DNA from: a virus
DNA length: 35,101 nucleotides
Virus record (IMG/VR): IMGVR_UViG_3300029309_000134
Span: 1-35,101 of that record
Direction: 5' to 3' (one strand)
This document shows positions 4,712 through 19,060 of this stretch, piece after piece. Position numbers and translations under genes: made by a program. A model generated the notes under the pieces. That model saw nothing but the letters and a program-made list of their open reading frames with translations, ran no database searches and was not told the origin of the DNA. Each line of letters starts with the position of its first letter. Position 1 is the stretch's first letter.

Positions 4712-4739
4712 AAAAAAGGCAGCGCATTGCTGCGCTGCC
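4712..4739 (-). terminator. Rho-independent terminator after the capsid genes
   Basis: A perfect 9-bp stem (GGCAGCGCA at 4718-4726, TGCGCTGCC at 4731-4739) with a 4-nt loop is followed on the minus strand by six T residues (4717-4712). It sits between the decoration-like gene (end 4746) and the tail tubular A gene (start 4699). T7 has its terminator T-phi at the same place, after capsid gene 10, where it raises capsid over tail gene expression. Confidence 0.9.
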
Positions 4740-4745
4740 TATAGT

Positions 4746-9665: not shown

Positions 9666-9889
9666 TTACTTCCCAATAATGATTTATATTCTATCGGAGC
9701 TTCAGTCAACAAACCTTGAGATCCAGTTAAAATGGTCTTTTGTCTACTAACTCGGTTAGCTCTTTTTCTTTTATCTTCTACTTCGTCTACGGAAGTTACT
9801 GCGCTATCTGGCACAACATCCATAGGCGGTGCTGGCGGTGGCGGCTCTACTGGCGGCGGCGCTGGCACTTTTGGATTAAGGAATCCCAT
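9662..9889 (-). CDS. Proline-rich small protein with the same C-terminal motif (75 aa)
   Basis: A 75-aa protein with a proline-rich N-terminus (PKVPAPPPVEPPPPAPPMD), a charged middle (DEVEDKRKRANRVSRQK) and the end SQGLLTEAPIEYKSLLGSK, which resembles the end of the downstream 221-aa protein. Short Pro-rich proteins ending in LLG are common next to the terminase/portal genes of T7-like marine podoviruses; their role is unknown. The start codon overlaps the large terminase stop (TAATG). Confidence 0.7.
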   Translation of the reverse strand: MGFLNPKVPAPPPVEPPPPAPPMDVVPDSAVTSVDEVEDKRKRANRVSRQKTILTGSQGLLTEAPIEYKSLLGSK

Positions 9890-11169
9890 TATATTGCTAC
9901 TCCCAATGGATTATAGTTACTATCTGCTATTGCTTGCGGCGGTCTATCAAAACCTCGGTTTTCTTTTATTCCAACCGCAAAGTATCGCCAGGCATCAGCT
10001 GCATGGCTCGCCCAATCATGTACTGGACTATTCCTAAATGTTCTCAATCTTTCATTGTAAGCTCGGTGATACTGGCGCAAAGCTTCCAGACCAGCCTTAC
10101 AATTTACCTGGTCAAACCAACAACGACCAAGAATAATCTGCGCAGCGTGTATGCCATCTTCAACTGGCAGCTTTGGTACAACCCTAAAATTGATTCCCAG
10201 GTCGTATGCGATCTCTCTGCGGCTTTTACCAGAGCCAAGCTCTCTAACCTCAATATCGTGTGGCGCATTGTGATTTCCATAGAAGTAGCTTTTCGATGTA
10301 AGTATTTTCGCATAGTGCGGTAATCCCTCATTGCGAGCTTCGTAAAAATCTATAACATGAATTGCCCTACCAACATTCTGAGTAAACCAGATTGCGGTAC
10401 TATCACCAATACCAAGATCCCACCAGGTATCTACTTTGTGCGCCTGGTCATACGGAACATTGCCTATGCGCCCACTTTCCTGGGCGGCTTGCAGCTCTTT
10501 TCCATAAATCGCACCAGGTACATTCGCAACCCAGGAACATTCAAACTCTTGTTCATACTGGTCCTCGGTCATTATCTGCCTGGCAGCGTGTAACTCTTGC
10601 TCATCAACTATACCAGTTTCGCTGGCCTTATAAACCTGGGTAAACCATTCATCACTGTTTTGAGCTGATTCATACAAATCAAAAAAAGCATTATGCCCTC
10701 TTGGAGTTCCAATAAAGAACGCCCAGCCTTTTCTATCTGATAATGCTGGCCGCAGCACTTCTGGAAACAAAGCTTCTGGCATATCTGCCATCTCATCAAG
10801 ACAAGCACCATCAGCGTAGATCCCTCGCAGCGCATCATAATTTTCTGCTCCGAGCAGCTGGATCCTTGCACCATTCGGTAGATCACACCGCAGCTCAGTT
10901 TCGTGAAACCTGACCATCGGCACCTTGCCAGCAAACTGCTTAAGATAATCCCATGCTACCGCCTTAGCCTGGCGGTATGTAGGCGCTATATAAAAATACC
11001 TGGGATTCGTCTTATCATTCAGTATCGCATCCCTCAGTAAATGATTTATAGCCATTACTGTTTTGCCAAATCGTCTATGACATACCACAACTCCCCAGCG
11101 ACTCTTGACCAGGGCATTGTGCAGTTTTGCCTGGAGCGGTCTTGGTGAATACGGAATCTCAATGTTCAT
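9889..11169 (-). CDS. terL: Terminase large subunit (426 aa)
   Basis: Packaging ATPase and nuclease. Walker A is in CHRRFGKT (residues 30-37). Walker B ends in ACLDEMAD, with D125 and E126 as the likely Mg-binding and catalytic residues. A coupling-type motif follows in FFIGTPRG (151-158). The RNase H-like nuclease domain has D251 in WWDLGIGDSTAIW and acidic residues in the C-terminal HDWASHAADAWRYF (384-397). 426 aa is on the short side for large terminases but all core motifs are present. The start is preceded by AGGGAG, with an 11-bp inverted repeat (11170-11180) between it and the ATG. A 246-bp gap separates it from the small subunit. Confidence 0.95.
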   Translation of the reverse strand: MNIEIPYSPRPLQAKLHNALVKSRWGVVVCHRRFGKTVMAINHLLRDAILNDKTNPRYFYIAPTYRQAKAVAWDYLKQFAGKVPMVRFHETELRCDLPNGARIQLLGAENYDALRGIYADGACLDEMADMPEALFPEVLRPALSDRKGWAFFIGTPRGHNAFFDLYESAQNSDEWFTQVYKASETGIVDEQELHAARQIMTEDQYEQEFECSWVANVPGAIYGKELQAAQESGRIGNVPYDQAHKVDTWWDLGIGDSTAIWFTQNVGRAIHVIDFYEARNEGLPHYAKILTSKSYFYGNHNAPHDIEVRELGSGKSRREIAYDLGINFRVVPKLPVEDGIHAAQIILGRCWFDQVNCKAGLEALRQYHRAYNERLRTFRNSPVHDWASHAADAWRYFAVGIKENRGFDRPPQAIADSNYNPLGVAI

Positions 11170-11415
11170 GTGTCAGACACTCCCTATCTGATATATATTA
11201 GATATAGCAAGCGGCGGCTTGCTTTGGGGTACCAGGGGTAGGCAAATTCTAAAAAAACCAGGTCAAACTTTGTAAAATAGCAGCCATATCGGTTAGTTAC
11301 CGCTAACTATTTCTATACTCAGCAACGATTACAGAAGATCGGCAAACAAAATTCAAAATCAAATCCCTCGTGTGCGAGATTACTGCCAAAGTGTTTGCAC
11401 AAAAATACGTTGATC
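11170..11415. other. Non-coding gap between terminase genes, rich in inverted repeats; candidate packaging site
   Basis: No gene is seen in these 246 bp. It holds an 11-bp inverted repeat GTGTC-a-GACAC (11170-11180), a 20-bp palindrome with one mismatched pair (11185-11204, TATCTGATATATATTAGATA), a hairpin GCAAGC-ggcg-GCTTGC (11207-11222), GTTAG-n6-CTAAC (11292-11307) and CTCG-tgtg-CGAG (11367-11378). Gaps are otherwise very rare in this tightly packed late operon, so the space probably has a DNA or RNA role. Terminases often cut near their own genes, so a pac or cos site is plausible. Confidence 0.45.
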
Positions 11416-11838
11416 CTAGTTTATCTCCAGGTTCCCATTCGCCCAGGACAAAGTTACCTGGCCATTATTCTCAGCTGCTTTATCTTCAGCTTTATCCCTA
11501 ACGCCTAACGGCTGCATCTGCCTAATATGTTTATCCATATGATCTGCTTCTAATCGTCTACGCTGCACTTCAGCCATTGCTAGCTTTGGATCATCTGGCA
11601 ATGCCATCTTAACCAAGTCTAGTATCTGATCCCTCATAACCTCACACTGCAACGCTCTAGCTTTACGATACATTGTATGAGCATCATCATTCTCTTGCAC
11701 CCATCTCAGTACAGTTCTCCAGCTTGGTAAGCTCTTTGTGTTATTACATATCCTGGTCAAGCTTTCACCCTCAGCAATACGCTCACAAATAGTTTCCATC
11801 TGTGGTTTTGTAACTCTTATTTTGTAAACTTTAGCCAT
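11416..11838 (-). CDS. terS: Terminase small subunit (140 aa)
   Basis: A 140-aa protein with an N-terminal helix-turn-helix DNA-recognition domain (about 8-50, METICERIAEGESLTRIC...SWRTVLRWVQ), a central helical oligomerisation segment (MYRKARALQCEVMRDQILDLVKMA, then KLAMAEVQRRRLEADHMDKHIRQMQP) and a short polar tail. This matches the small terminase-like proteins that recognise the packaging site and load the large subunit. It is the first gene of the late minus-strand block and lies 14 bp downstream of a strong bidirectional terminator. Confidence 0.85.
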   Translation of the reverse strand: MAKVYKIRVTKPQMETICERIAEGESLTRICNNTKSLPSWRTVLRWVQENDDAHTMYRKARALQCEVMRDQILDLVKMALPDDPKLAMAEVQRRRLEADHMDKHIRQMQPLGVRDKAEDKAAENNGQVTLSWANGNLEIN

Positions 11839-11851
11839 TTTCCCAGCTCAT

Positions 11852-11897
11852 AAAAAAACCTGGCAGAGAGATGACCAACTGCCAGGCTAGTTTTTTT
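11852..11897. terminator. Bidirectional rho-independent terminator upstream of the terminase operon
   Basis: A perfect 8-bp stem CCTGGCAG (11859-11866) / CTGCCAGG (11879-11886) has a 12-nt loop. On the minus strand it is followed at once by seven T residues (11858-11852), a textbook terminator lying 14 bp before the small terminase start. On the plus strand seven T residues follow after four bases (11891-11897), which would stop antisense reading out of the late block. Confidence 0.85.
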
Positions 11898-11968
11898 CAA
11901 CATAAAATTTGGTTTGCAGCTCCCATAAATCTCACACTAAACTGCAAACCGCCGAAAGGAGTCAAACA

Positions 11969-11992
11969 ATGAAAAATAGCTTGTTGAGGTAA
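11969..11992 (+). CDS. Possible 7-residue leader peptide (MKNSLLR)
   Basis: ATG at 11969 is preceded by AAAGGAG at a normal distance and followed by seven sense codons and TAA. It sits just right of the 9-bp inverted repeat at 11911-11950. It could be a short leader peptide, or chance. No promoter for it is clear on the plus strand. Confidence 0.25.
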   Translation: MKNSLLR

Positions 11993-12023
11993 ACCAGAGC
12001 TATCTTCTCAAAGCTTACCAAAA

Positions 12024-12053
12024 ACAGTAATCTTTTCGATTCATTTAGTCAAG
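12024..12053 (-). promoter_or_regulatory. Candidate late promoter
   Basis: On the minus strand TTGACT (12053-12048), an 18-bp spacer and TACTGT (12029-12024) form a sigma70-type promoter with a good -35 and a weak -10 that keeps the key T, A and final T. It points at the terminase genes. A transcript starting near 12017 would meet the terminator at 11852 after about 165 nt. It lacks the GTCAA arm found at the presumed repressor sites. Confidence 0.45.
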
Positions 12054-12099
12054 CAGCTTATTTGAAAAAAATTAATTTGAAAAAAACTTTGTCTACCCC

Positions 12100-12128
12100 T
12101 TGACTTCTAACGTCAATAGGCCCATATT
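12100..12128 (+). promoter_or_regulatory. Rightward promoter with overlapping operator TTGACTTCTAACGTCAA
   Basis: TTGACT (12100-12105), a 17-bp spacer and CATATT (12123-12128) form a sigma70-type promoter 19 bp before the 76-aa gene, whose ribosome binding site GGAGG is at 12135-12139. The -35 box is the left arm of the inverted repeat TTGAC-N7-GTCAA (12100-12116). Twelve bases of it (TTCTAACGTCAA) recur exactly at 15422-15433, and a near copy overlaps the integrase promoter. Confidence 0.65.
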
Positions 12129-12146
12129 AGTAATGGAGGTAAAAAC

Positions 12147-12377
12147 ATGAACAACTGGATAATTGCTGAGAAATTTGCTGGCAAGCCATACTGGTACAAA
12201 CACAAGTTTGCGCCAGTTTGGATCCTTAAAAACTTTGGCAACAGACCTCTTTGGCCTTACGAGGTCTACAAAACAACTGAGTGCGGCGAGTACAGAAAAG
12301 CTACTGGCCACACATTCTCTAAGCTTGATCTTGCCAAAGATCATGCTGAAACAATAATCAACATGGAGAGTGCATGA
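12147..12377 (+). CDS. Hypothetical small protein, first gene of the DpdA-like operon (76 aa)
   Basis: A 76-aa protein rich in aromatic and basic residues (WIIAEKFAGKPYWYKHKFAPVW), with TGHTFSKLDLAKDHAETIINM at the C-terminal end. I do not recognise it. A strong ribosome binding site (GGAGG, 7 bases before ATG) and ATGA overlap with the transglycosylase-like gene make it a real, translationally coupled gene, possibly a partner of that protein. Confidence 0.75.
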   Translation: MNNWIIAEKFAGKPYWYKHKFAPVWILKNFGNRPLWPYEVYKTTECGEYRKATGHTFSKLDLAKDHAETIINMESA

Positions 12378-13135: not shown

Positions 13136-13636
13136 ATGAGCGCTTTTATCGTAAATCCAAAACACATTGCTGCCCTTGCAGCATTTACTATTCAACCCAG
13201 CAATTACTTTTATTGCTACAATATGCACACAAAAAAAGTACTGTTTGACTTCAGCTCTCCTGGCGTAGCAAACATAAAAAAGTTTCACCATGTAAAATGG
13301 ATAGCCAAGATGCTTGCTGAAGCTAACGTCAAGAGTGTCTACGAGCTTGAGAAAAGAGCTACTAAAGAAGTTTACAGTGCCAAGTATCTTGAGGATCTAA
13401 TGTTGTTTCCAGCTGATTGCATCAAAGCTCTTGAAAAGCTTGGCACTAACGGCCACAACTACTACTTGAGTGATGCTGATGTTTACAACATGGCTTGCTG
13501 CTTAAACTACCAGAGCTGCGAGGTAGAAAACTGGATGCACACTGATGCTTACTGGATCATCAAGGCGATCAAGGATCATGCAGCAAAAGGTATGGCTAGT
13601 GATGCTAAAGTTAAATGGGAATGGAAAGCTGCTTAA
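13136..13636 (+). CDS. Hypothetical phage protein (166 aa)
   Basis: A 166-aa soluble protein opening MSAFIVNPKHIAALAAFTIQ, like an uncharacterised phage/bacterial protein type with an N-terminal '(D/N)xxHIxxL' pattern and a later helical segment (MLAEANVKSVYELE, then YLEDLMLFPADCIKALEKLG). No catalytic motif is visible. GAAAGGAG lies before the ATG. It is the last gene of the operon with the transglycosylase-like gene, and its stop overlaps the stop of the convergent DUF6362-like gene (13633-13636) with no terminator between them. Confidence 0.75.
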   Translation: MSAFIVNPKHIAALAAFTIQPSNYFYCYNMHTKKVLFDFSSPGVANIKKFHHVKWIAKMLAEANVKSVYELEKRATKEVYSAKYLEDLMLFPADCIKALEKLGTNGHNYYLSDADVYNMACCLNYQSCEVENWMHTDAYWIIKAIKDHAAKGMASDAKVKWEWKAA

Positions 13637-14064
13637 AGCTTGTAATATAATCTAACCAGGGCATCCTGGTATCTACGCTTAACAATCCTGGGATCATTCA
13701 ATCCCAGGATTTTTGCTATCTTGGTCCATTTTGCGCCACGATCTCTAAATGCAGCTGAATGAGCTACGGCCCAGATTAGTCTGCGATCAGCTTCATCCAT
13801 AGACAATCCCATTGTAATTGCTTTATCTAACCTGGTTATCTGTTCTGGTGATGCTTTCAGCCTGGGAGATTCAAAAGAGTTATATCCATAAGCAGACCAT
13901 TCTTTGACATAATCTGGCCAATGCACCATCTTCTGCTTTCTGATTACACCAGGCAGCTTTCTTTCAGTTTCAGCTGCTTCCAGGAATAAATCATGTAGCT
14001 GATCTATTGCCAGTTTGTCTTGTGATCTTAATGCTCTTTCACTCTTTACGTCTAAGCTTATCAT
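13633..14064 (-). CDS. DUF6362-like HTH protein, candidate late regulator (143 aa)
   Basis: The arrangement (AAETERKLPGVIR, HWPDYVKEWSAYGY, then a linker, ADRRLIWAVAHSAAFRDRGAKWTKIAKILGLNDPRIVKRRYQDALVRL) matches the DUF6362 pattern of small phage proteins. Their C-terminal sigma-like helix-turn-helix (about 112-137) follows an RRLIWA helix. Such genes commonly sit near terminase genes and are suspected transcription regulators. It is the last gene of the leftward operon from 15.40 kb and overlaps the 117-aa gene by 26 bp. A role in switching on the late operon is inference. Confidence 0.65.
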   Translation of the reverse strand: MISLDVKSERALRSQDKLAIDQLHDLFLEAAETERKLPGVIRKQKMVHWPDYVKEWSAYGYNSFESPRLKASPEQITRLDKAITMGLSMDEADRRLIWAVAHSAAFRDRGAKWTKIAKILGLNDPRIVKRRYQDALVRLYYKL

Positions 14065-14821: not shown

Positions 14822-15210
14822 TATCTCCCCCTCAGTTTAATTAACTCTTGTAAAAATTCTTGTACCTGGTCAACAGATCTGCAAAGCGCCCAGAAAACAC
14901 CAGCTTCCTCTAGCCTATCTCTAATTTCCCTTTGGCTTTGAGTGAGCTGGCCCTTGCGACCTTTTACCTCAATAAATATTGATAACGATACGCCGCAGTA
15001 TGTCTGATCCCCTGGCACAAATATTTCTATGTCTGGCCAGCCAGCTTTCGTTCCCATACGTTTTTGTTTTACTTTAAATGACACATGGCGATTACCCTCA
15101 TTCGGTGAGTGATGCCAAACTGATCCAGGCGGCAGCATAATATCCAACCACCTGGCTATTCGTAGGTGTACTGTATCTTCCGAATCAATTTCTACGGATG
15201 ATAAAGTCAT
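14821..15210 (-). CDS. VRR-NUC domain nuclease (129 aa)
   Basis: A stand-alone VRR-NUC (PD-(D/E)XK) nuclease. HHSPNEG (33-39), KMGTKAGWPD-like RMGTKAGWPDIEIF (51-64, catalytic D60) and FIEVKGRKGQLTQSQ (79-93, E81-x-K83 with the following QxxxQ) are the family signatures. The length is normal for phage VRR-NUC proteins, which act as structure-specific endonucleases, some on Holliday junction-like DNA. It overlaps the HTH regulator gene by 26 bp in the same operon. It probably works with the exonuclease and annealing protein coded on the other side of the control region. Confidence 0.92.
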   Translation of the reverse strand: MTLSSVEIDSEDTVHLRIARWLDIMLPPGSVWHHSPNEGNRHVSFKVKQKRMGTKAGWPDIEIFVPGDQTYCGVSLSIFIEVKGRKGQLTQSQREIRDRLEEAGVFWALCRSVDQVQEFLQELIKLRGR

Positions 15211-15397
15211 TTGGCGTAACCGCTCCCATTGTTACTTCTAAAATCAAGCTTAAATTTTTTGGATTCGGTGTCAATGCCTGGTTATGATTTTTTGGTAAAC
15301 ACCACCGCCTGGCTACTGTAGCTTCTTTAAAACCAAGTTTTTCAGCTAGTTTTTTGTAACTCAAATTATTTTCTAATCTATATTCTTCTAGTGTCAT
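15185..15397 (-). CDS. Small HTH regulator, candidate lysogeny repressor/Cro (70 aa)
   Basis: I take the ATG at 15397-15395. An upstream extension to 15490 would run through the divergent promoters and carries unlike residues. The 70-aa protein starts MTLEEYRLENNLSYKKLAEKLGFKEATVARRW, an XRE/Cro-like helix-turn-helix (about 11-35), then NPKNLSLILEVTMGAVTPNDF, the usual end of small phage Cro-like regulators. It is the first leftward gene from the control region with paired TTGACGTT sites and is the best candidate for binding them. No larger CI-type repressor with a dimerisation or cleavage domain is present in the genome. Confidence 0.8.
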   Translation of the reverse strand: MTLEEYRLENNLSYKKLAEKLGFKEATVARRWCLPKNHNQALTPNPKNLSLILEVTMGAVTPNDFIIRRN

Positions 15398-15502
15398 GTT
15401 GAAACAAATATCAAAAATGTATTCTAACGTCAACATAATAAAATAAATTTGACAAGGTTGACGTTTACAGATACTGTTGTCGCTAATCAAAGGAGGAAAA
15501 CA
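15398..15502. promoter_or_regulatory. Divergent control region with paired AACGTCAAC / GTTGACGTT sites
   Basis: AACGTCAAC (15426-15434) and GTTGACGTT (15457-15465) are exact inverted copies. Leftward, TTGACG (minus, 15433-15428) with a 17-bp spacer and TATTTG (15410-15405) reads into the HTH regulator. Rightward, TTGACA (15449-15454) with a 17-bp spacer and TACTGT (15472-15477) reads into the exonuclease; a second TTGACG (15458-15463) is offset by 9 bp. The repeats cover the -35 boxes, so one protein could control both directions. AAAGGAGG precedes the exonuclease ATG. Confidence 0.7.
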
Positions 15503-17613: not shown

Positions 17614-17946
17614 ATGGGAAACTCACCACAATTTTCAAATACAAATATGAAATTCCAGAGGGCGGTAGGCGCATCTGACGATAACCCTGGACAAAAAGTT
17701 AAGGTAAGTATCTGGCTTAACTTTGATAATGGCTGGGATGATGTAAACAAAATACCTTTTCCGCCCACACCTGAGCAGCAAAAATCTATTGAAGATATAC
17801 ATAAACAAATTAAAGATTTGGGGATGGAACTATCAGTGCAGCTGCAAACTGATAATAAAATGAATATTGCCAGGACCAGGGCATTTTGTAACGAGCTTCG
17901 TTACGAAACTAAAAATGAATCTATTAGCGGATTTGATGATCTCTAA
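17614..17946 (+). CDS. Hypothetical early protein with acidic C-terminus (110 aa)
   Basis: A 110-aa protein opening MGNSPQFSNTNMKFQRAVGAS. It has a short beta segment KVKVSIWLNFDNGW, a helix EQQKSIEDIHKQIKDLGM and a tail ending SISGFDDL. An acidic end with an aromatic residue is a feature of ssDNA-binding proteins, but no OB-fold pattern is clear. AGGAGAT precedes the ATG. It closes the recombination operon, and its stop overlaps that of the convergent integrase gene (17943-17946). Confidence 0.65.
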   Translation: MGNSPQFSNTNMKFQRAVGASDDNPGQKVKVSIWLNFDNGWDDVNKIPFPPTPEQQKSIEDIHKQIKDLGMELSVQLQTDNKMNIARTRAFCNELRYETKNESISGFDDL

Positions 17947-19010
17947 AAATTTATCTTGGCAATCTTTTGTTGCAGCTTTTGTTTTCTAGCTAAATCTTGC
18001 ATCCAATGGCCATAGACGTTTTGAGTTATCTTAATATCGCTATGGCCCATAAGATTTGAAACTGTCCAAATGTCATCACCAAAATGCTCAAGCATCTTAC
18101 TGGCATAGTAATGTCTGAGATCGTGCCACCTCAAAGTTTTATCACTTACTTTCTTAACTACCTTTTGCAGCTGCTCCAGCCAGTAGCTTCTTCCTATCAT
18201 CGTATTGTACTTAGTGCCAAACACAAAGTTTGTTTTACCTGGTCTACCTTTTTTAATGTAAAGCTCTTTCAGCTCTTTTAAAATTTTACCAGGGATAGGC
18301 ACTATTCTATTTGATGTGTTTGTTTTGACCAGGCCCACGCCATGCTTCTCGATTTCGTCATCAACAACAACCTTGAGCTTTGCGCTTCGTCTAACATTTA
18401 CTTCAGACATTTTAAAATCAATATCATCCCAGGTCAAAGCTCGTTGCTCACCAGCTCTTAGGCCAGTGCTGCAAGCAAATCTGTAAGCTAGTTTAATTGA
18501 TTCTGGTAAATGGCTATCAATCTCATGGATAAAATCTGTGGATAATTTTTCAATCTTAGGCTGCTGCTCAACGATAGGTCTTTTGAACTCAGCATCTAAC
18601 ATGGGATTTTGCGCCAGGCAGTTTCTGCTTTTGCAAAAAGATAAAAACTTATTGAAACAAGATCGCATCTCTTTGACAGTTTTAAAGCTTCGCTTACCTT
18701 TTTTACCGCTATTAAATAATGTGGGGAGAATGTAGGATTCACAATGTTCTACAGTGAGATCCCTTGGTTTGAGCTGGCCAACAGTGCAGCTGCCTACATT
18801 GATTGCCAGGATTGTATCAAAGATATTTTTGTATTTATCAAAATAATCTGGCAGCGGTTTGCCGCTTTTCATATTTTTGTATTCTCTAAAATAAAATGTT
18901 CTTAGAAAATAATTATTTTTAAGTCTTATATCCCAATCTTTCCTGGCATCTTGGCATGGGAACTCACCAAGCAATTCTTGTATTGTCCAGTTTTCTATTT
19001 GTTTTTTCAT
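17943..19010 (-). CDS. int: Tyrosine integrase (355 aa)
   Basis: A site-specific recombinase of the phage integrase family. There is an N-terminal core-binding region (about 60-130) and a C-terminal catalytic domain with R175 (STGLRAGEQRALTW), K219 (GLVKTNTSNRIVPIP), H296-x-x-R299 (WHDLRHYYAS), H323 (MGHSDIKITQ) and the nucleophile Y333 (NVYGHW). All catalytic residues are present, so the phage should integrate. The ribosome binding site AAGGAGT and a strong promoter (19032-19060) with an operator-like repeat lie just upstream. No att core or tRNA fragment was found beside it. It is the only gene here that directly shows a temperate lifestyle. Confidence 0.96.
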   Translation of the reverse strand: MKKQIENWTIQELLGEFPCQDARKDWDIRLKNNYFLRTFYFREYKNMKSGKPLPDYFDKYKNIFDTILAINVGSCTVGQLKPRDLTVEHCESYILPTLFNSGKKGKRSFKTVKEMRSCFNKFLSFCKSRNCLAQNPMLDAEFKRPIVEQQPKIEKLSTDFIHEIDSHLPESIKLAYRFACSTGLRAGEQRALTWDDIDFKMSEVNVRRSAKLKVVVDDEIEKHGVGLVKTNTSNRIVPIPGKILKELKELYIKKGRPGKTNFVFGTKYNTMIGRSYWLEQLQKVVKKVSDKTLRWHDLRHYYASKMLEHFGDDIWTVSNLMGHSDIKITQNVYGHWMQDLARKQKLQQKIAKINF

Positions 19011-19031: not shown

Positions 19032-19060
19032 TATATAAGAAGCATGACGTATGAAGTCAA
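19032..19060 (-). promoter_or_regulatory. Integrase promoter with operator-like repeat
   Basis: On the minus strand TTGACT (19060-19055), a 17-bp spacer and TATATA (19037-19032) form the best sigma70-type promoter in the window, 22 bp before the integrase ATG. The bases TTGACTTCATACGTCA (19060-19045) differ from the operator at 12100-12115 at only two central positions, so integrase is probably controlled by the same repressor. Confidence 0.7.

Follow-up and report, generated by a model that had tools for sequence, protein, structure and literature searches.

The terminase genes of this virus probably lie behind a late switch of the Q type, with the DUF6362 protein as candidate for a new antiterminator family. 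The window, by which we mean the whole 35,101-nt stretch that was analysed (positions 1-35,101 of IMG/VR record IMGVR_UViG_3300029309_000134), comes from an ocean virus of bacteria, and the region of interest (11838-12147) is flanked on one side by the terminase genes, which are read leftward, and on the other by a rightward cassette of three genes. A preliminary description of this DNA had proposed a layout before the terminase genes like that of lambda pR'-6S-tR', and this is supported by a -10-like hexamer at the lambda spacing, a conserved spacer motif, a family-wide terminator and a second terminator further along.

The switch would work as follows. Host RNA polymerase would initiate at the leftward promoter before terS, and sigma, not yet released, would hold on to the -10-like hexamer among the bases transcribed first, causing the polymerase to pause. 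Without a phage factor the polymerase would proceed and come off some 166 nt further on, at the terminator lying just ahead of terS. DUF6362, the final product of the leftward early operon, would bind AATGnnCTnnAA between the -35 and -10 elements through its sigma-4-like HTH and load onto the paused polymerase, which would then resist both the terS-proximal and the late-operon terminators and transcribe the packaging, capsid and tail genes. Of this scheme, the sequence elements with their spacing and conservation and the gene order are observed, and the pause, the protein binding and the antitermination are inferred. With less assurance, we lean towards a fuller statement: that DUF6362 founds a family of processive antiterminators not described before, which has the Q21-type fold but no detectable sequence kinship to Q and, by loading at AATGnnCTnnAA on sigma-paused polymerase, acts as the late switch of a large uncultured group of marine phages, and that the terminated leader, which in many relatives has a 5' hairpin and an exposed CCUCC, may be a small RNA of lysogens.

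If true, this would explain how late genes are switched on in a large group of uncultured marine viruses, and the reading gives a likely role to a protein encoded by 352 IMG/VR stretches. No paper dealing with late switching of these phages came up in the text accessible from the open-licence PMC literature. The large terminase of the pelagiphage Skadi is a distant relative of the window's; the available part of the Skadi paper describes such phages as having no RNA polymerase of their own and reports no terminator found in Skadi-1.

The leftward promoter and its surroundings

The elements discussed in this section are:

9889-11169, minus strand: terL, terminase large subunit (Pfam and PHROGs matches)
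11170-11415: non-coding gap that separates terS from terL by about 250 nt and contains a hairpin and conserved CTCGCACACGAG
11416-11838, minus strand: terS, terminase small subunit (Sf6-like), first late gene (PF20901, E 1.8e-22; phrog_1482)
12012-12017, minus strand: TAAGCT, a -10-like hexamer of the initially transcribed region and a candidate site of sigma-dependent pausing; the expected +1 is near 12017
12024-12029, minus strand: weak -10 element TACTGT, from sequence reading and alignment of relatives
12030-12046, minus strand: 17-bp spacer with conserved AATGnnCTnnAA, candidate antiterminator-binding (QBE-like) element
12047-12052, minus strand: -35 element TTGACT
12100-12128, plus strand: opposing rightward promoter of the cassette, TTGACT-17-CATATT, its -35 within the palindrome TTGACttctaacGTCAA
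12147-13636, plus strand: rightward three-gene cassette, between the DUF6362 gene and terS

Conservation was assessed in two sets of relatives. Searching IMG/VR with terS gave 47 loci, 41 of which, together with the window, were anchored on the promoter and yielded 28 distinct sequences; in this first anchoring L003 was dropped (its contig ends at the terminator), L042-L045 failed and L046 was left out. A search with DUF6362 gave 352 IMG/VR relatives, of which 80 loci were kept. Among the distant loci with terS, 36 of 45 match a looser promoter pattern, and since that pattern contained the -35 and A[AT]TG, but neither the -10 nor the -10-like hexamer, counts of the former two are conditional in the distant set. 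The remaining nine of the 45, read by eye, have the same layout, with TACAAT, TAGAAT or CAAGCT as the -10-like hexamer.

TTG is present in 48 of 48 distinct promoters and TTGAC in 46, counts that are partly a matter of construction because the -35 element was used to anchor the rows. In the window the -35 and -10 are separated by 17 bp, the -10 matches only three of six consensus positions and the promoter is absent from the list produced by a consensus scan. Among the distinct promoters this first hexamer keeps T1 in 42 of 48 and A2 in 41 of 48, seven others having CATwGT one base on. The leftward promoter had been placed at 12053-12024; its layout was found and recurs in relatives, with the upstream edge corrected by one base to 12052. 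The full pattern (TTGACN, N17/18, TA-hexamer, N5/6, TAnnnT) has one match in the window where a shuffled window is expected to give 0.365, a single-window count that is weak alone; this sole match directly precedes terS, and the same layout stands before terS in relatives. Applied to the 41.7 kb of P22, the pattern picks out P late alone, and it has no match in the searched parts of three HTVC010P-type phages.

The most regular feature is the -10-like hexamer, which follows TACTGT after six bases. Counting from the first base of the -10, TAnnnT begins exactly 12 nt further on in 47 of 49 distinct sequences, and no other offset tested (2-30) occurs in more than 8 of them. When the sequences are grouped at 75% identity, 12 of the 14 remaining representatives have the exact offset; of the other two, one is displaced by a single base and the second carries CAAGCT. 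The inner three positions are free to vary, and 13 different hexamers are seen. The offset from the -35 is 35, equal to that of lambda pR' and of annotated P22 P late, both of which have AACGAT at this same distance from TTGACT. In lambdoid phages, according to the accessible text of PMC6606751, a -10-like element pauses the polymerase so that Q can load; for AlpA, changes to A2 or T6 of the -10-like element are described as hurting antitermination (PMC9371919, in the portion available), and these two are the invariant bases of TAnnnT here. The hexamer at 12017-12012 is a candidate pause site.

Within the spacer, positions -16 to -13 relative to the -10 are A in 48, A in 44, T in 47 and G in 47 of 48 sequences, and -6 is A in all 48, counts that are partly conditional on the anchoring. 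Relative to the -10, the AATG, a pyrimidine (C or T) and an A stay at fixed positions, although the -35 spacing is 17 or 18 according to group. The published descriptions available to us place the QBE (Q), ABE (AlpA) and ZBE (GafZ) elements between -35 and -10, and by analogy the conserved AATGnnCTnnAA, which occupies this position, is a candidate antiterminator-binding element.

Two neighbouring regions deserve mention. The rightward cassette, which includes a protein matching phrog_887 (queuine tRNA-ribosyltransferase), varies in gene content among relatives and is missing in many. The palindrome TTGACttc..ACGTCA overlapping the cassette -35 (12100-12116, plus strand) recurs at 19060 on the minus strand, upstream of the integrase gene, and the pair is possibly a shared operator. 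On the other side, the arms of the hairpin in the terS-terL gap seem by eye to co-vary in 19 aligned sequences, and the gap may be regarded as a candidate cos or pac site.

Leader and terminators

4712-4740, minus strand: second strong terminator, between the capsid region and the tail-tube gene (hairpin scan)
11852-11886, minus strand: intrinsic, tR'-like terminator with 8-bp stem, 12-nt loop and U7 (hairpin scan; compensatory changes)
11852-12017, minus strand: predicted terminated leader RNA of about 166 nt (fold z -3.3)
11911-11919 and 11942-11950: exact arms, GGTTTGCAG and CTGCAAACC, of a 9-bp inverted repeat in the leader
15185-15490: HTH_3-like protein, below the Pfam cut-off
17943-19010: tyrosine integrase

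The near-perfect terminator that had been described at 11886-11852, just before terS, stands up well: its stem is formed (plus strand) by CCTGGCAG at 11859-11866 and CTGCCAGG at 11879-11886, U7 follows on the minus strand at 11858-11852, and its hairpin energy of -17.4 kcal/mol ranks second in the 35-kb window. It ends 13 nt before terS. It is also kept in relatives: of 66 distinct stretches, each the 90 nt ahead of terS, 60 pass a test for hairpin and T-tract, compared with 52 of 300 random 90-mers from the window, and 50 of the 66 do so with at least five T in eight, as against 15 of the 300. The six failures comprise hairpins with a poor T tail (L108 and L099), strong hairpins without one (L109-L111) and a start called too far downstream (L122); L042-L045 give several weak passes. 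Alignment of 22 near relatives shows 100% pairing across the cells of the 8-bp stem, 16 of which are double changes (0 of 500 shuffles).

Counted with the -10-like hexamer at +1, as in lambda numbering, the predicted transcript (12017-11852) agrees with the length of about 165 nt given in the preliminary description, and the perfect 9-bp inverted repeat reported there is present with both arms exact. The leader RNA folds better than shuffled sequences (z -3.3). No Rfam family reaches its gathering score within the window; four weak matches near the leader, all far below the cut-offs, were taken as chance. Most short-leader loci have 53-54 bp between the -35 and the terminator stem despite differing hairpins, and in the window's group this interval is longer by an insert of roughly 110 bp.

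Several further observations concern the leader. In many relatives the 3' arm of the terminator can pair just before the terS start (11838-11867), through CCAG/CTGG, TTGCT/AGCAA or TTACT/AGTAA; the summed longest match is 98 against a shuffle mean of 70.9 (0 of 1000), a figure that is no probability because the sequences are related, and the pairing is possibly a ribosome-site switch. On the opposite strand (11950-11993, plus) there is a strong Shine-Dalgarno sequence, GAAAGGAG (AAAGGAG), with a 7-codon ORF, and several insert-bearing relatives retain, by eye, a plus-strand Shine-Dalgarno with ORFs of a few codons; the possibility that the insert is a rightward 5'UTR was considered. Many distant leaders (within L074-L108) start with a 5'-end hairpin after the -10-like element, followed by unpaired CCTCCC, a combination that resembles an anti-Shine-Dalgarno small RNA. 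The tyrosine integrase and the HTH_3-like protein suggest a temperate phage, and it is therefore conceivable that the predicted terminated leader RNA is present in lysogens or uninduced cells.

The terminator in the late operon has the best hairpin energy in the window (-19.4 kcal/mol, at 4717 minus). It is kept in 15 of 15 genomes, with differing stems; these are the window and the 14 records, out of 15 searched, that hold the tail-tube gene. Its presence fits processive antitermination and would also fit simple dosage control.

The DUF6362 protein

13633-14064, minus strand: DUF6362 protein, candidate Q-type antiterminator (PF19889, E 1.8e-14)

All 94 loci that have both genes, a number that includes some contigs fetched twice, carry the DUF6362 gene upstream of terS and on its strand. 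The gap between the two is at most 300 nt in 36 of the 94; in the window the rightward cassette separates the DUF6362 gene from the leftward promoter.

The structure model (pLDDT 78, pTM 0.73) predicts an N-terminal helix, a region of loop and short helices, and an HTH like that of sigma region 4. Comparison of the model with VIA-align puts Q21 at the top of the list over 104-108 residues spanning 16-142, with Z scores of 7.1 and 6.9, the former within what VIA-align terms the "common" range; sigma region 4 domains come next, over about residues 66-143. A second DUF6362 model, under the heading of a distant relative, was compared with 188 chains, Q21 not among them, and there only sigma-4 domains rank high. 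Foldseek returned no match below E 2 for the DUF6362 model. Together, the synteny and the Q21- and sigma-4-like predicted fold lend support to the protein as the candidate antiterminator named in the preliminary description, and it likely works like Q.

Sequence comparisons set the protein apart from known families. Membership of the Q21 sequence family (PF06530) was ruled out: a Pfam scan of the protein gives DUF6362 alone, with no PF06530 in the window, and hhalign profile comparison with six PF06530 proteins, among them QuuD, which matches Q21 itself, gives a probability of 0.5%. Nor does DUF6362 at E 0.01 match PF03589, the lambda Q family, to which lambda Q and P22 gp23 do match. It had no tblastn match at E 0.01 in 50,697 phage records, nothing below E 0.2 among PDB sequences and nothing meaningful in NCBIfam, and its profile has no match in the parts of HTVC010P, Skadi-5 and HTVC100P searched. 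A genome scan found one relative, in a Flavobacteriales MAG contig that is probably a phage contig in the bin. Neither Pfam nor PHROGs gives DUF6362 a function, and no paper found in the open-licence PMC literature names it.

Alternative explanations and known systems

The leftward promoter might instead depend on an activator, either DUF6362 or another HTH protein, with TAnnnT at 12017-12012 as the true -10, TTGACT plus AATG..CT..AA as the activator site replacing the -35, and a terminator that merely lowers or insulates expression. The second hexamer is indeed often the better -10 (TATCAT, TATGAT or TACAAT, and by eye a perfect TATAAT in L042 and L044), and DUF6362 resembles sigma region 4 as much as Q21. 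We nevertheless regard this as unlikely: an activator-dependent promoter needs no TTGAC 17-18 bp upstream of a first hexamer that keeps T1 and A2, and the polymerase would still need to get past a terminator placed directly after the promoter. It is doubtful to a greater degree that antitermination is real but is performed by the leader RNA itself, in a put-like manner, or by another phage protein, DUF6362 doing something else. HK022 put RNA, which acts alone according to the accessible description, provides a precedent, and in many distant loci a hairpin forms the extreme 5' end of the leader. Against this, the 53-54 bp of short-leader relatives leave little room for a hairpin, and in every locus examined with both genes DUF6362, rather than some other protein, is the one found upstream.

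We think it very unlikely that the hairpin is just an insulator blocking leftward read-through from the early side, with late transcription starting elsewhere, for example in the terS-terL gap. A conserved promoter stands just upstream of the terminator, at the 53-54 bp distance in most short-leader loci, and the 36 loci with DUF6362 within 300 nt of terS have no room for a cassette to insulate from. Two points speak for an insulator: the gap, at about 250 nt, is both conserved and non-coding, and a terminator at this place would also shield terS from antisense transcription across the rightward cassette. A Q-type switch involving DUF6362 stays our preferred reading, and it may be set beside the closest known systems.

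In lambda (pR'-Q-tR') and P22 (gene 23, P late, t late), as here with the candidate DUF6362, the antiterminator gene precedes the late promoter and is read from the same strand, TTGACT stands at a 35-nt offset from the -10-like hexamer, and a terminator follows the promoter with the late genes beyond. Unlike these phages, DUF6362 has no detectable sequence likeness to Q, the first late genes encode terminase, not lysis functions, and a variable rightward cassette may separate regulator from promoter. For one of the two DUF6362 models phage 21 Q (PF06530; PDB 6P1B and 6P1C, the top VIA-align rows) is the best solved match to the predicted fold; the conserved spacer element differs from the direct repeat of TGAGCA that is described for that phage.

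Two further systems were compared by description, from the accessible parts of their sources (further sources, likewise in part: PMC11150451, PMC10504331, PMC9004378). AlpA of Pseudomonas aeruginosa is, unlike the phage protein DUF6362, a cellular lysis regulator, but its promoter, like the unit proposed here, has an element between -35 and -10, a -10-like sequence and a downstream terminator, and the available text of PMC9371919 describes a fold that resembles Q21 although sequence homology is lacking. The Caulobacter gene transfer agent protein GafZ differs in working with GafY and IHF and in having its terminator after the first gene; as predicted for DUF6362 it has a sigma-like HTH and an element between -10 and -35, and its antitermination of a phage-like structural cluster resembles the role proposed here for DUF6362.
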